From contig VBWE01000008.1 of NCBI GenBank assembly GCA_006218065.1, positions 1 through 64,000 on the forward strand: a stretch of DNA of 64,000 nucleotides, in the 5' to 3' direction. Below, piece after piece: positions 24,108 through 48,896 of the stretch. Under the pieces are notes generated by a model. That model did not search any database. It saw only the letters and a list, made by a program, of their open reading frames with translations, and was not told the origin of the DNA. Made by a program: the position numbers and the translations under genes. The stretch is from Bacteroidota bacterium (GTDB lineage Bacteria > Bacteroidota > Bacteroidia > Palsa-965). Position 1 is the first letter of the stretch. Each line of letters begins with the position of its first letter.

Positions 24108-25415
24108 ATGCAGTATATCGATAACATCCTCTTCGTCCTTCTTCTTATCGCGGGATCAGCCCTGTTCTGGTACAACGCCCGCAAGATCATCCGCAATATT
24201 CGTATCGGCAAAGCCCTCGACCGCACGGACAATAAAGCCATGCGCTGGCGCACGATGATCCGCGTAGCCCTCGGCCAGTCGAAAATGGTGACGCGGCCCG
24301 TGGCGGGCATCATGCACATTTTCGTTTACGTGGGTTTTGTGATCATCAACATCGAGCTGATCGAAATCGTGATCGACGGTATTTTCGGTACGCACCGGTC
24401 GCTTTCTTTTCTCGGCGGATTTTACACGTTCCTGATCGCATCGTTCGAGATACTCGGCGCTTTGGTCATACTCGGCTGCGCGGTATTCCTGCTGCGCCGC
24501 AACGTGGTCCGTGTAAAACGTTTCCTGAACAAGGAACTTGACGGCTGGCCGCGTTCGGATGCGAACCTGATCCTGGTGATCGAAATCACGCTGATGCTCG
24601 CGTTCCTGTTTATGAATGCGGCCGATTTCCGCGTGATACAAATTACAGGAAGCACGGAAGTCTCGCAGGCGGCGTTCCCGGTGAGCGCCTGGCTGGCGAA
24701 GCTTTACGGCGATGCGGGAGTTCACGGGCTTCACCTGGCGGAAATGTCCTGCTGGTGGTATCATATCGTCGGCATTTTCTTTTTCCTGAATTACCTGCCG
24801 TATTCCAAGCACCTGCACATCATACTCGCGTTTCCGAATACCTATTTCTCGAACCTGGAAGCGAAAGGCCGTTTTACGAACGACGCCGTAGTTACCCGCG
24901 AAGTGAAACTGATGCTCGATCCCGCCGCGGCCGTGCCGCCCGCAAGCGACCAGCCCACGCGTTTCGGCGCGAAAGACGTAACCGACCTCAGCTGGAAACA
25001 GTTGCTCGATGCCTATTCATGCACCGAATGCGGCCGCTGCACCTCGTCCTGTCCCGCGAATATCACCGGCAAACAATTATCGCCGCGCAAGATCATGATG
25101 GACACGCGCGACCGCCTGGAAGAAGTCGGAAAGAGTATCGACAAAAAAGGGAAGCTGGAAGATGACGGGAAAAACCTGCTCGGCGATTACATCACGCCGG
25201 AAGAACTCTGGGCCTGTACTTCGTGCAACGCCTGCGTGCAGGAATGTCCCGTGAACATCGATCCGCTTGCCATCATCATCGACCTGCGCCGTTACTTAGT
25301 GATGGAACAAAGCGCCGCACCGAACGAACTGAACATGACGTTTACGAATATCGAGAACAACGGCGCGCCCTGGCAGTTTTCACCGGCCGACCGGCTGAAC
25401 TGGAAAAACGAATGA
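24108..25415 (+). CDS. Membrane-bound Fe-S oxidoreductase (heterodisulfide-reductase-like)
   Basis: A 435-residue protein. About five membrane segments fill the first 245 residues, with His residues placed as in NarI/HdrE-type b-haem subunits. Two [4Fe-4S] cluster motifs follow: CTECGRCTSSCP (about residue 305) and CTSCNACVQECP (about 370). The layout fits an HdrDE/GlpC-like membrane electron-transfer subunit linking quinones to a soluble partner. The CCG-domain protein at 26467-27261 is the obvious partner, so the pair would together resemble a split HdrD. They are separated here by a HAD gene and a GxxExxY element. Confidence 0.84.
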   Translation: MQYIDNILFVLLLIAGSALFWYNARKIIRNIRIGKALDRTDNKAMRWRTMIRVALGQSKMVTRPVAGIMHIFVYVGFVIINIELIEIVIDGIFGTHRSLSFLGGFYTFLIASFEILGALVILGCAVFLLRRNVVRVKRFLNKELDGWPRSDANLILVIEITLMLAFLFMNAADFRVIQITGSTEVSQAAFPVSAWLAKLYGDAGVHGLHLAEMSCWWYHIVGIFFFLNYLPYSKHLHIILAFPNTYFSNLEAKGRFTNDAVVTREVKLMLDPAAAVPPASDQPTRFGAKDVTDLSWKQLLDAYSCTECGRCTSSCPANITGKQLSPRKIMMDTRDRLEEVGKSIDKKGKLEDDGKNLLGDYITPEELWACTSCNACVQECPVNIDPLAIIIDLRRYLVMEQSAAPNELNMTFTNIENNGAPWQFSPADRLNWKNE

Positions 25416-25420
25416 GGGGC

Positions 25421-25489
25421 ATTTCGAATGCCGAACTCCGAATGCCGAATGCCGAATGATGAAGGCCTTCGCAATCCGGCATTCGAAAT
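25421..25489. repeat. Hairpin of the GAATGCCGAAT word family
   Basis: Arms 25421-25433 and 25477-25489 are perfect 13-bp complements. The interior reiterates CCGAATG and holds a perfect palindrome GAAGGCCTTC (25461-25470). It lies directly after the stop codon of the oxidoreductase gene. Confidence 0.75.
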
Positions 25490-25531
25490 TCGCAATTAGT
25501 AAAAGGATCCTGATTTTGAAATAAAGACAAT

Positions 25532-25960
25532 ATGACTATCAACGAACATACTTTACTCGAACTCGAAGAGAACGGAAAAAAGCTCAGCCCGATTCTGCCG
25601 GAGCATGTTAAGAATTACCTGATCGATATCGACGGGACCGTTTGCGAAGACATCCCGAACGAAGAAGCCTGGCGCATGGCCGATGCGGAAGTATACCCGG
25701 ATGCGCTGGTTACGGTGAACAAATGGTTCGAAGAAGGACACCTCATTACGTTTTTCACTTCACGCACCGAAGAGCACCGCGAGGTCACGGAATTGTGGCT
25801 GAAGAAAAACGGTTTCAACTGGCACGGTCTGCTGATGGGAAAACCCCGCGGCGGAAATTATCACTGGATCGATAATCACATGGTGCGCGCGACACGTTAC
25901 ACGGGCAGGTTCACCGACCTGGTGGAGAAAACGCATACGATACAAGTGTTTGAGTCCTAG
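25532..25960 (+). CDS. HAD-superfamily phosphatase-like protein
   Basis: A 142-residue protein with the HAD nucleophile motif DIDGT near residue 35, motif II-like TFFTSRTEEHREVTELWL, and a late acidic pair around HWIDNH. The small cap-less size suits an LNS2/polynucleotide-kinase-phosphatase-like HAD fold. Relatives, as I recall, are sometimes labelled phosphoheptose isomerase, but no SIS domain is visible. The substrate is unknown. Its stop codon TAG touches the left inverted repeat of the next element. Confidence 0.75.
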   Translation: MTINEHTLLELEENGKKLSPILPEHVKNYLIDIDGTVCEDIPNEEAWRMADAEVYPDALVTVNKWFEEGHLITFFTSRTEEHREVTELWLKKNGFNWHGLLMGKPRGGNYHWIDNHMVRATRYTGRFTDLVEKTHTIQVFES

Positions 25961-26463
25961 CCGCAGATTTCGCAGATTAACGCAGATTAAATATGTCCTA
26001 TTCCATAAAAAGTGAACCGTGGATTGTAGCTGAACCTGAGCAGCCTGTTTATGGCAAGCAGGAATATCCGCTTCAAAAAGAAACGTATGAGATAATCGGA
26101 ATTTGCATGGAGGTCCACAAGGAACTTGGATACGGTTTCCAGGAAGTTGTGTATAAAGATGCATTGGAACAGGAGTTCAAATGGAGGAACATCCCGTTTG
26201 AGCGCGAAAAAAAGTATGAAATCAACTACAAGGGAATAATATTACCCCACTATTATTTTGCGGATTTTGTAGTGAGAGATAATATTATTCTTGAAGTAAA
26301 AGCACAACAGGGCGTTATCGAAGATCATTATTGTCAAGTGATAAATTATCTTGCTGCTTCGAAATGCCCGGTAGGTTTATTGGTCAATTTCGGAGAACAA
26401 TCGCTTCGATATAAAAGATTGATTTTATCCAAATAATCTGCGTTTAATCTGCGAAATCTGCGG
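25961..26463. mobile_element. GxxExxY cassette bounded by terminal inverted repeats
   Basis: Left end 25961-25988 and right end 26435-26463 are reverse complements over 28/29 bases with one single-base gap. Both are built from CGCAGATT words. They enclose one gene (25993-26436). The left end abuts the HAD stop codon and the right end stops 3 bases before the next start codon. No target-site duplication is visible and no transposase is encoded, so mobility is inference. Confidence 0.6.
25993..26436 (+). CDS. GxxExxY protein (PD-(D/E)XK-like nuclease fold)
   Basis: A 147-residue protein with the family signature GFQEVVY near residue 50. Nuclease-fold-like elements are Glu in the signature, Asp in YYFADFVV, and IILEVKA (E-x-K) near residue 94; then QVINYLAASKCPVGLLVNFG. 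It fits the PDDEXK_3/GxxExxY family, whose biochemical activity is undefined. It is richer in AT than its neighbours. It interrupts an otherwise continuous run of housekeeping-type genes and is framed by CGCAGATT inverted repeats. Confidence 0.88.
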   Translation: MSYSIKSEPWIVAEPEQPVYGKQEYPLQKETYEIIGICMEVHKELGYGFQEVVYKDALEQEFKWRNIPFEREKKYEINYKGIILPHYYFADFVVRDNIILEVKAQQGVIEDHYCQVINYLAASKCPVGLLVNFGEQSLRYKRLILSK

Positions 26464-26466
26464 CAA

Positions 26467-27261
26467 ATGAGCAACGACAACATGAAAATAGAAACCATGG
26501 CCGATTATATGGCCCGCGGCGAGTCCCCGGAAATTCTTTTCTGGGTGGGCTGCGCCGGCAGTTTCGATGATCGCGCGAAGAAGATCACGAAAGCCATCGT
26601 GCGTATCCTGAATCATGTGGGGATGAAGTTCGCCGTACTCGGTACTGAAGAATCCTGCACCGGCGATCCCGCCAAGCGCGCCGGGAACGAGTTCCTGTTC
26701 CAGATGCAGGCGATGAACAACATTACCGTGCTCAACGGCTACGAAGTGAAAAAAATAGTGACCGGCTGCCCGCATTGTTTCAATACGCTGAAGAACGAGT
26801 ATCCCGAACTCGGCGGACAATACGAAGTGATCCATCATACGCAATTAGTCCAGCAGCTGATCGACAGCGGAAAACTGAAAGTGCCCGGCGGAACGTTCAA
26901 AGGGAAAAAGATCACGTACCACGATCCCTGTTACCTCGGCCGCGCCAACGATGTATATGAAGCGCCCCGCGAAGTGTTGCAGAAACTCGACGCCGAACTG
27001 GCCGAAATGAAACGCAGCCGCGCCAAAGGATTGTGCTGCGGCGCCGGTGGTTCTCAAATGTTCAAGGAAGCGGAAAAAGGAAACAAGGAAGTGAACGTGG
27101 AGCGCAGCGAAGAAGCGCTCGCTCTGCAGCCCGACGTGATCGCGGTCGGTTGTCCTTTCTGTATGACCATGATGACCGACGGCGTAAAACATTTCGAAAA
27201 AGAGAACCAGGTCAAAGTGCTGGATGTAGCCGAACTCATCGCGCAGGCGAATGATTTGTGA
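26467..27261 (+). CDS. CCG-domain Fe-S protein (HdrB/LutA-like)
   Basis: A 264-residue soluble protein with two cysteine-rich CCG modules. The first has WVGCAGSFD, EESCTGDPAKR and GCPHCFNT; the second has DPCYLGR, LCCGAGG and GCPFCMTMM. CCG domains hold unusual [4Fe-4S] clusters in heterodisulfide reductase, lactate and glycerol-phosphate oxidoreductases. It probably receives or gives electrons to the membrane Fe-S protein at 24108-25415. The start at 26467 lies 3 bases beyond the right repeat of the GxxExxY element, so its leader was remade by that element. Confidence 0.85.
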   Translation: MSNDNMKIETMADYMARGESPEILFWVGCAGSFDDRAKKITKAIVRILNHVGMKFAVLGTEESCTGDPAKRAGNEFLFQMQAMNNITVLNGYEVKKIVTGCPHCFNTLKNEYPELGGQYEVIHHTQLVQQLIDSGKLKVPGGTFKGKKITYHDPCYLGRANDVYEAPREVLQKLDAELAEMKRSRAKGLCCGAGGSQMFKEAEKGNKEVNVERSEEALALQPDVIAVGCPFCMTMMTDGVKHFEKENQVKVLDVAELIAQANDL

Positions 27262-27280
27262 TCCACCCGGGAATAAATAT

Positions 27281-27370
27281 CAAATGCAAAATTTCAAATG
27301 AAAAATGTAAAAGTGATCGCCCGAACACTTTTACATTTTTCATTCAGCGTTTGACATTTTTCATTTGAAC
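27281..27370. repeat. Hairpin of the CAAATGnnAAATG word family
   Basis: A perfect 19-bp stem (27297-27315 with 27326-27344) has a 10-base loop, inside weaker outer arms that reiterate CAAATG. It lies between the CCG-protein stop and the next gene, and could also terminate transcription. Confidence 0.8.
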
Positions 27371-29208: not shown

Positions 29209-30804
29209 CTACTCCACAAAAATATCCGCCTTCTTCGCCGGCCGTTCTTTCCCGCGCCAGCGGAAATCTTTCAGCAAAGCTTCACGTGGTGATAAATCGA
29301 TGGGCGGATAAAGCGTCGCATCGGGTTTATTGAAAAACGTAATTTTTTTGATCTCATCTTCGGCTACAAAAATACTGAGCTTGCTGCAGTCCACTTTATT
29401 CACACCGATGATTTCATTTTTGTCTTTCACGAAATACAAAGTCTGCCCGTTGCCTTCCACGTCCACGCGGTACAATTCGCTCTTCCGGAAATAGCCGGTC
29501 ATTTTTCTTCCCTTGATCTGGTTGTAACGCGTACTGTCTTCCTGCGAAGCGATGAAAGCCGTGTTTTCCAGGAGCATCTGTTTGATCTCGTCGTTTGTCA
29601 TTAAGATCGAAATTTTTTCCGCGGTGAGTTGACTTTGCTCATTCCACAAAACGGGTTTCCCGAACAGGCGCATCGTACTGTCCGACGAAGTGAAGATCAT
29701 CGAATCGCATTTGCCCTGCATATCGCTTTTGAAAAACTTCACGTTCCGGTAGCCGTACACCGTGCGCAGCGTATCGAAGCGCGGGGCTTCGGGATCGCTG
29801 CCTTTTACCGTATCGTAGCGCGTGAACGCCTGCAGCGTATCGGCATGCAGGAAAAGGGAATCTTTATCGTAAATCTGCGTGTACATGGCGCGGCCGGTAA
29901 CCAGCGAATGTTCCGTTTTTTCGTGGTGTATGCCGAGATCGCCGGTAATGATCATTTTGCGCGCCGTGTCGAGCAGCGTCACATTTCCTTTGGCCATGCC
30001 GGTTCGTGTTTTCCGGTCGTAAAAAAGACTGTCGCCCATCAGCGCACGCTTGTTGCTCACCAGCGCCGCTTTTTTGCTGAAGCGCCCGCGGTCGAGGTTC
30101 GTATCATAATACCCGTCCTCGCAGTACATGGCATTGTCCGGGTTCCACATCGTGGTCGGTCCCATGAAGTATGCGATTTTGGTCCCCGGCACGTAGCGAA
30201 GTGTATCGCAGTTCATCGTGTATTCGGGTGTGAACAATTCGACATCTTTGCGGAAGGTGAGCGTTCTCGATTCGGAAGAATAATAACCCAGCTTGCTTTT
30301 CAGCGTATTGCCCTTGCTCGTGATCGTGCCGCCGGTATTGTAACTCGCTACTTTATTTTTCAGATCGTAAACCAGGTAATCCGTCACGAGAATCATGTCG
30401 CCGTCCGACATCGAAATGTTTTTGAAAAGTTCCGCTTTCCGTTCGTTGCCGTCGTACTTCAGCGTTTCGCCGTACATATGCAGCGAATCGCCGTGCTGGA
30501 TATGCACGTGACCGAATGCTTCGAGTGAATTCGTTTCGTTGTAGAGGTATGCGCTGTCGCAGTACATCACCGCACCCTGGTGTTCGAATTCCACGTGACC
30601 GATCAGGCGCTGCGTTTTGGCTTCTTTGCTTCCCTTCAGTTTATCGGCGTGGCGGAGATTGATTTTTTTGCCGCCTTGTGCGGATAAAGGTGTGATGCAT
30701 GTACAGCACAAAAAAACAACCACGGAGACACGGAGCGCACGGAGAACCGCGGAAGCTCCCGTTTTCTTATCGCAACTCAATACCTTCCTGGAGAATGCCT
30801 GCAT
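29209..30804 (-). CDS. OstA-like (LptA/LptD N-domain type) exported protein
   Basis: A 531-residue protein. A signal peptide (h-region VSVVVFLCC, cleavage near PLSAQ, residue ~43) is followed by serial OstA beta-jellyroll repeats. These have the typical alternation of VMYCDSAYLYNETNSLEAFGHV, YGETLKYDGNERKAELFKNI and MNCDTLRYVPGTKIAYFMG. It belongs to the family handling lipopolysaccharide across the periplasm; the Bacteroidota OstA-like protein is longer than LptA. The N-terminal region encoding the signal peptide overlaps a CCACGGAGACACGGAG repeat (30720-30752), so this part of the protein is repeat-derived. It follows purA by 51 bases. Confidence 0.82.
   Translation of the reverse strand: MQAFSRKVLSCDKKTGASAVLRALRVSVVVFLCCTCITPLSAQGGKKINLRHADKLKGSKEAKTQRLIGHVEFEHQGAVMYCDSAYLYNETNSLEAFGHVHIQHGDSLHMYGETLKYDGNERKAELFKNISMSDGDMILVTDYLVYDLKNKVASYNTGGTITSKGNTLKSKLGYYSSESRTLTFRKDVELFTPEYTMNCDTLRYVPGTKIAYFMGPTTMWNPDNAMYCEDGYYDTNLDRGRFSKKAALVSNKRALMGDSLFYDRKTRTGMAKGNVTLLDTARKMIITGDLGIHHEKTEHSLVTGRAMYTQIYDKDSLFLHADTLQAFTRYDTVKGSDPEAPRFDTLRTVYGYRNVKFFKSDMQGKCDSMIFTSSDSTMRLFGKPVLWNEQSQLTAEKISILMTNDEIKQMLLENTAFIASQEDSTRYNQIKGRKMTGYFRKSELYRVDVEGNGQTLYFVKDKNEIIGVNKVDCSKLSIFVAEDEIKKITFFNKPDATLYPPIDLSPREALLKDFRWRGKERPAKKADIFVE
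30720..30752. repeat. CCACGGAGACACGGAG-type repeat inside a signal-peptide coding region
   Basis: Three reiterated CACGGAG units here encode ASAVLRALRVSVVV on the minus strand, part of the OstA-like signal peptide. A related hairpin with the same word lies at 48836-48896. Confidence 0.7.
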
Positions 30805-48835: not shown

Positions 48836-48896
48836 CCACAGAGGCACGGAGAGCACAGAGAACCACGGAGACTCTGTGTTCTCTGTGCCTCCGTGG
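48836..48896. repeat. CCACAGAGGCACGGAG-type hairpin
   Basis: Arms 48836-48860 and 48872-48896 (25 bp, three mismatches) are separated by an 11-base loop. It lies 26 bases after the orphan gene tail and before lysS, and is related in wording to 30720-30752. Confidence 0.8.

Follow-up and report, generated by a model that had tools for sequence, protein, structure and literature searches.

The window analysed here, a stretch of DNA of 64,000 nucleotides, contains a small gene of the GxxExxY family that is enclosed by inverted repeats and fitted into a narrow gap between two genes of a host operon. This arrangement raises two questions: whether the gene and its repeats form an inserted unit, and whether the encoded protein itself acts on the ends. 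The features of the locus are as follows.

24108..25415, + strand: 4Fe-4S protein gene of the host operon, two genes upstream of the element.
25532..25960, + strand: upstream host gene of the HAD-like phosphatase family (profile match); gene order the same in seven relatives.
25960..26464, + strand: whole element, 505 bp, with inverted arms; missing at the corresponding site of 10 relatives.
25960..25989, + strand: left arm, GC-CGCAGATT-T-CGCAGATT-AA-CGCAGATT-A; position 25960, where it begins, is also the G of the HAD gene's TAG stop codon.
25993..26436, + strand: GxxExxY gene, 147 aa, of the TIGR04256/PF13366 PD-(D/E)XK nuclease family; E51, D91, E101-x-K103, and Q115-xxx-Y119 intact.
26434..26464, - strand: right arm, the reverse complement of the left arm plus one extra A; it supplies the TAA stop codon of the GxxExxY gene (26434-26436).
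26467..27261, + strand: downstream host gene with a CCG domain (heterodisulfide-reductase-like; profile match); gene order the same in relatives.

The arms consist of a 21-nt inverted repeat (25960-25980 and 26444-26464; 100% complementary) that is continued inward by a second one of 11 nt (25979-25989 and 26434-26444; 100%). Each arm holds three CGCAGATT words in the form GC-CGCAGATT-n-CGCAGATT-nn(n)-CGCAGATT, and the right arm carries one A more than the left. As RNA, the 505-nt element would be closed by pairing of its two arms into a stem of about 30 bp. The original prediction had described inverted ends at 25961-25988 and 26435-26463, beginning at the base after a stop codon, ending three bases before the next start codon, and separating two Fe-S genes. 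The inverted repeat is real, but its limits are 25960-25989 and 26434-26464; the left arm overlaps the HAD stop codon by one base, and only two bases separate the right arm from the ATG at 26467. The actual neighbors are the HAD-like and CCG-domain genes, with the 4Fe-4S gene one further upstream. The absence of a transposase was borne out, as a profile search of the element returned only PF13366 in its protein and no DDE transposase.

Gene-less palindromic arrays were also observed in gaps close by in this operon region, at 25418-25502 (CGAATGCCGAA) and 27275-27369 (TTCAAATGAAAAATG); the gap holding the former measures 8 to 51 nt in six relatives. Elsewhere in the window, arrays of CACGGAG/CACAGAG, the second kind of GxxExxY word, are located at 30721-30744 and 48837-48895, the latter being an inverted pair.

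For the recognition of an inserted unit, the same place in relatives is informative. The CCG gene was found beside the operon's 4Fe-4S gene in 10 of the 11 family relatives searched, and none of these 10 carried the element. The HAD gene lies between the two in seven of them, with a HAD-CCG gap of 8 to 58 nt, and the distance from the 4Fe-4S gene to the CCG gene is 40 to 127 nt in the remaining three. The DNA of these relatives is 69 to 78% identical, at which the exact insertion joint is unreadable. Judged by this comparison, the window element is a unit inserted into an intercistronic gap, as had been predicted.

A close genus, represented by eight genomes, provided a finer view. At one site, the element is present in G037 and G065 and absent from G049 and G174, with flanks 94 to 95% identical; the empty joint reads CATATTAA-AAGGAATTTAAGA-ATG and the filled one CATATTAA-ATTTAAAT-[element]-AATATAATT-ATG. 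Empty sites, to which the original prediction had looked for exact ends and a target duplication, were thus found both among the ten relatives and in the close genus, while no clear duplication was seen at the close-genus empty site or around the arm pairs of the window's own genome. In the search for empty sites of near-identical sequence, plasmids and phages were dropped, as GxxExxY occurred on 8 of 72,556 plasmid records and was found in no phage.

At a second site of the close genus, four species carry a palindrome, the gene, and a third arm, and G065 carries an 86-bp palindrome only. This gene-less form could have arisen by recombination between two like-oriented arms, a direction of change that we infer. 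At a third site, the arms are kept around a decayed gene in one species. Resident GxxExxY orthologues showed dN/dS values of 0.00 to 0.13, indicating purifying selection, and the copies within one genome were only 28 to 68% identical, so that each is single copy; near-identical dispersed copies of the gene were not found. From these values, the gene looks to be inherited vertically in single copy. At one intercistronic site (L277-L281), the words in species without the gene are quite different and form palindromes or tandem arrays, an appearance like that of a hot spot.

The words recur throughout the window's genome. The pattern CGCAGATT-n-CGCAGATT with up to two mismatches had 53 matches there, as against none for the reversed control pattern, so the words are far beyond chance. 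Among the 39 clear matches, 22 fall into 11 pairs with under 1 kb between partners, and 17 stand alone. All 11 pairs run + then -, that is, inward, and none outward; 10 of the 11 are gene-less, with a spacing of 10 to 134 bp. Each of 25 arms has a sharp outer edge, GC|CGCAGATT, in which the G and C never vary, and the arm consensus is [A/T]GC-(CGCAGATT)x3. The DNA outside these 25 arms and the loops inside the gene-less copies are unconserved; the loops indicate that the gene-less copies did not simply arise by recent copying of a single master. Of 28 matches examined for position, 3 fall within called genes and the others are intergenic, and the gene-less units sit between genes of all relative orientations. 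In this genome, gene-less copies outnumber gene-bearing ones, and they look like nonautonomous derivatives. Different words stand at its other three GxxExxY genes: CACAGAG and CGCAGAG arms and, in one case, an upstream CGCAATG array only.

Repeats commonly standing without a gene had been named in advance as evidence against a gene-repeat link. They are indeed common in this genome, but they depend statistically on the presence of a GxxExxY gene and so support the link; the reading that gene-less copies disprove it was rejected on this ground. GxxExxY genes occur in about half of the sampled genomes of the phylum (151/296). Triple arrays of CRCRGAG were found in 32 of the 296 genomes, 30 of which have GxxExxY (P = 7e-8), and triple arrays of CRCRGATT in 27, of which 22 have it (P = 0.001). 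When both array types were combined, the gene was present in 48/54 genomes versus 151/296 (P = 1.4e-10), in a sample where some genera recur and a few array matches are low-complexity repeats. No GxxExxY gene was detected in six genomes with arrays. Two genomes (G160 and G167) hold many word arrays and no detected gene, for which a recent gene loss or an assembly gap is possible. REPs have likewise been reported to persist after the loss of RAYT (PMC3686654).

The association was then considered across phyla, using 80 fetched GxxExxY loci (many-phyla set) and a phylum sample. The flank-to-flank inverted-repeat score was at least 20 at 51/77 many-phyla loci and 21/34 phylum-sample loci; control ORFs from these loci reached it in 3/92 cases and cross pairs in 2/145. 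Words of the class C[AG]CN[AG]AG, C[AG]C[AGT]GAT, C[AG]C[GT]AAT, or ACAGGAT were scored as tandem pairs. Such pairs stood on both flanks at 59 of 114 GxxExxY loci, at 0/211 control ORFs, and at 0/34 PF05635 loci; one flank or both had them at 83/114 GxxExxY loci and 11/211 control ORFs. Words at GxxExxY loci pointed inward 277 times and outward 62 times, and about one-quarter of the loci had no clear arms by the inverted-repeat and word tests. Loci from 18 named phyla passed the one-side test, in a count that treats the window and the phylum sample as Bacteroidota, their presumed phylum. Arms at one locus were more alike than same-word arms elsewhere (median 22 versus 13 for the AG type; P = 2.5e-23). 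Thus, the expectation that end repeats frame other GxxExxY genes holds generally and in many phyla, but not with one fixed sequence: the word varies by protein clade, the kinds being CACAGAG, CGCAGATT, CACGAATT, and ACAGGATT. One common arm sequence was rejected, since words vary by clade and PF05635 loci use others.

On a tree of the 114 GxxExxY proteins (119 columns, with many weak forks), the four word types need 8 changes, whereas 300 shuffles of the labels within phyla needed 23.8 on average and never fewer than 17. After thinning to below 60% identity (38 rows), 7 changes were needed versus 11.2 within phylum, a value as low being reached in 1 of 300 trials. On this tree, word type tracks protein lineage beyond host phylum, with a signal that is weaker after strict thinning. 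The ACAGGATT-word clade covers Verrucomicrobiota, Myxococcota, and Pseudomonadota, and the CACGAATT-word clade covers Fusobacteriota, Pseudomonadota, Cloacimonadota, and Fidelibacterota. The generality of end repeats at GxxExxY genes, together with the tie between word type and protein lineage, favors the protein itself as the factor acting on the ends. A role of the nuclease in its own movement, as originally suggested, would fit this; its binding and cutting of the arms and the movement itself are what we infer.

The protein matched TIGR04256 of NCBIfam (7.8e-40; 135.9 bits versus a cut-off of 35) and PF13366 of Pfam (2.7e-36; 124.9 bits versus a cut-off of 22). Residues E51, D91, E101, K103, Q115, and Y119 are invariant in an alignment of 40 sequences. 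The AlphaFold model has a mean pLDDT of 86, with a core above 90 and residues 1 to 22 disordered. Its best PDB fold match is SSO0001, a Cas4 protein, followed by lambda exonuclease, LHK-Exo, and RecE at TM scores of about 0.5; AddAB is also among the matches, and tRNA-splicing endonucleases appear at weaker scores only. A PDB sequence search with the protein gave no match, and the PADLOC Cas4 profile weakly matched a GxxExxY relative (8.1e-05). The protein is predicted from the model and profiles to be a compact RecB/Cas4-type PD-(D/E)XK nuclease with an intact active site.

The genomic position of the gene is also regular. With neighbors called as simple open reading frames and not by a trained gene finder, 81 of 104 GxxExxY genes lie in sense between two same-direction genes, against 6 that lie between such genes in antisense; the median gaps flanking these operon genes are 84 and 90 bp. 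Stricter neighbor rules gave 59 sense versus 1 antisense. In five genomes of one genus, the GxxExxY domain is fused in frame to the N terminus of a RecQ-like helicase; two of the fusions read through, and the former right arm apparently encodes the linker.

A similar framing was observed at genes of another family, PF05635 (S23/IVP four-helix bundle). These genes (L035-L038 in the window's own genome and L163-L192) are framed by inverted arrays of short near-repeats whose words are locus specific (GCAAAAGGC, GCAGTAGC, GCAGTCGGCAG, and CGATTTGGGATTT) and none of which belongs to the GxxExxY class. The inverted-repeat score was at least 20 at 15 of 34 loci, and 24 genes were in sense versus 4 in antisense. 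Two loci (L169 and L178) apparently represent the same site in two species of one genus, the flanks having been matched by eye; their words differ, yet the arms at each are still inverted copies of each other. In another (L036), the gene has an internal TGA and the arms are still recognizable. The PF05635 framing looks like a parallel system. Since these genes, with an unrelated fold, also have arms of other words, arms alone are no proof of a nuclease mechanism.

We propose, at a probability of roughly 0.5, that the element is a REPtron-like selfish unit in which a PD-(D/E)XK nuclease is bounded by arrays of its cognate word and acts on its own arms. A nuclease gene enclosed by inverted arrays of its own word would be the autonomous unit, and gene-less arm pairs would be its nonautonomous offspring, comparable to REPINs. 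The protein probably recognizes the word array, through its 8- to 10-nt period, a single-strand hairpin, or the paired ends. Cutting or resection at the array may then let arm-bounded units be copied into intergenic gaps. The gene itself would move rarely and be inherited vertically in single copy. Its sense placement in operons would allow expression from the host transcript, from which the arms may fold as a long stem.

That stem is the starting point of the main rival, which acts at the RNA level and which we consider unlikely. The unit would resemble the intervening sequences of 23S rRNA, its transcript stem being cut by RNase III or insulating the neighboring cistrons; selection or insertion by an RNA route would keep the gene in sense, and the protein would target RNA or an RNA-DNA intermediate. 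The 81:6 sense bias inside operons and the stem of about 30 bp closing the element fit this reading, as does the same style of framing at the PF05635 genes of the window's genome. In Coxiella, a 23S intervening sequence with an S23 ORF has a 28-bp terminal stem that is cleaved by RNase III (PMC4990558). However, in the fold search the protein came closest to DNA nucleases (Cas4, lambda exonuclease, RecE, and AddAB), with tRNA-splicing endonucleases weaker, and gene-less units are placed between genes of every relative orientation. The sense bias can be accounted for by the need for expression from a host promoter.

It is rather improbable that another enzyme, such as a Y1/HUH transposase, moves the arrays as a MITE or REP family of their own, with GxxExxY as repeatedly captured cargo. 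The excess of gene-less copies and two weak Y1_Tnp matches in the genome would suit such a passenger gene, but this class of words is specific to GxxExxY (0/34 PF05635 loci and 0/211 controls), its types follow the branches of the GxxExxY tree within phyla, and genomes lacking the gene rarely contain arrays. Slightly less credence still is given to homing or addiction, in which the nuclease would cut empty alleles or harm cells that lose the gene and the arms would merely protect or close the insert. A small PD-(D/E)XK nuclease that is kept by purifying selection at fixed sites, with neither a transposase nor a visible target duplication, agrees with this; insertion sites sharing no obvious sequence beyond their intercistronic position do not, and neither clade-specific end words nor scattered gene-less copies are predicted by it. 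Local inverted duplication around an ordinary gene, or chance, without any mobility, is hardly tenable: the words are short and simple, but empty sites, genome-wide copies, recurrence across phyla, and zero control matches contradict it.

The REPtron-like reading can be extended, tentatively and with some doubt, to GxxExxY nucleases as a whole. They might be the enzymes of an unrecognized class of mobile repeats in about 18 phyla, each lineage cutting and spreading its own tandem-word hairpin without a transposase, and PF05635 (S23/Avd-like) genes might head a parallel class with other words. In the open literature searched, which held few subscription papers and preprints, no published account of these words or of their association with GxxExxY was found. 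The gene, present in about half of the phylum's sampled genomes, is hardly mentioned in the literature searched, and the word pairing gives it a testable role. One explanation would also serve for several widespread short repeats, the arrays of CACAGAG, CGCAGATT, CACGAATT, and ACAGGATT.

Compared with known systems, GxxExxY shares with Cas4 and lambda exonuclease (RecB type) the predicted fold and the E, D, E-x-K, and Q-xxx-Y residues. It differs from them in being a stand-alone protein of about 120 residues framed by its own repeats, and from Cas4 in having no cysteine among its invariant columns and operon genes, with no CRISPR genes here, as neighbors. The MITEs of DDE insertion sequences are likewise short gene-less inverted-repeat units that depend on a gene elsewhere, whereas GxxExxY units show no DDE transposase or target duplication and have word-array ends and unconserved loops. 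The 23S rRNA intervening sequence with a PF05635 ORF is also a small ORF within inverted arms in a transcribed region, with a stem of about 30 bp (PMC4990558), but the GxxExxY element has another fold and other words and lies between protein genes, not in rRNA.

The closest anatomy is that of RAYT/REP, in which a single-copy, vertically kept gene is flanked by inverted copies of a repeat, gene-less inverted doublets occur, each lineage has its cognate repeat, and the number of repeats depends on whether the gene is present, except in some cases of its loss (PMC3686654, PMC3116915). The GxxExxY gene is similarly flanked by inverted copies of its repeat, with 10 inward gene-less pairs and no outward ones in the host genome; the repeat class follows the enzyme lineage, more weakly after thinning; and the copies are mostly extragenic, with array abundance tied to the gene. 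In contrast, the enzyme is of the Cas4-like PD-(D/E)XK type and not HUH/Y1, only PF13366 having been found, the repeat consists of tandem 7- to 8-nt words instead of one GTAG/GTGG-tagged hairpin, and the units lie in sense in operons and are found in about 18 phyla. Because both enzyme and repeat are unrelated, the element is not a member of the REPtron/REPIN family despite the feature-by-feature match in anatomy. If the proposed reading holds, genome parasites of the REP/RAYT style would gain a second type of enzyme.
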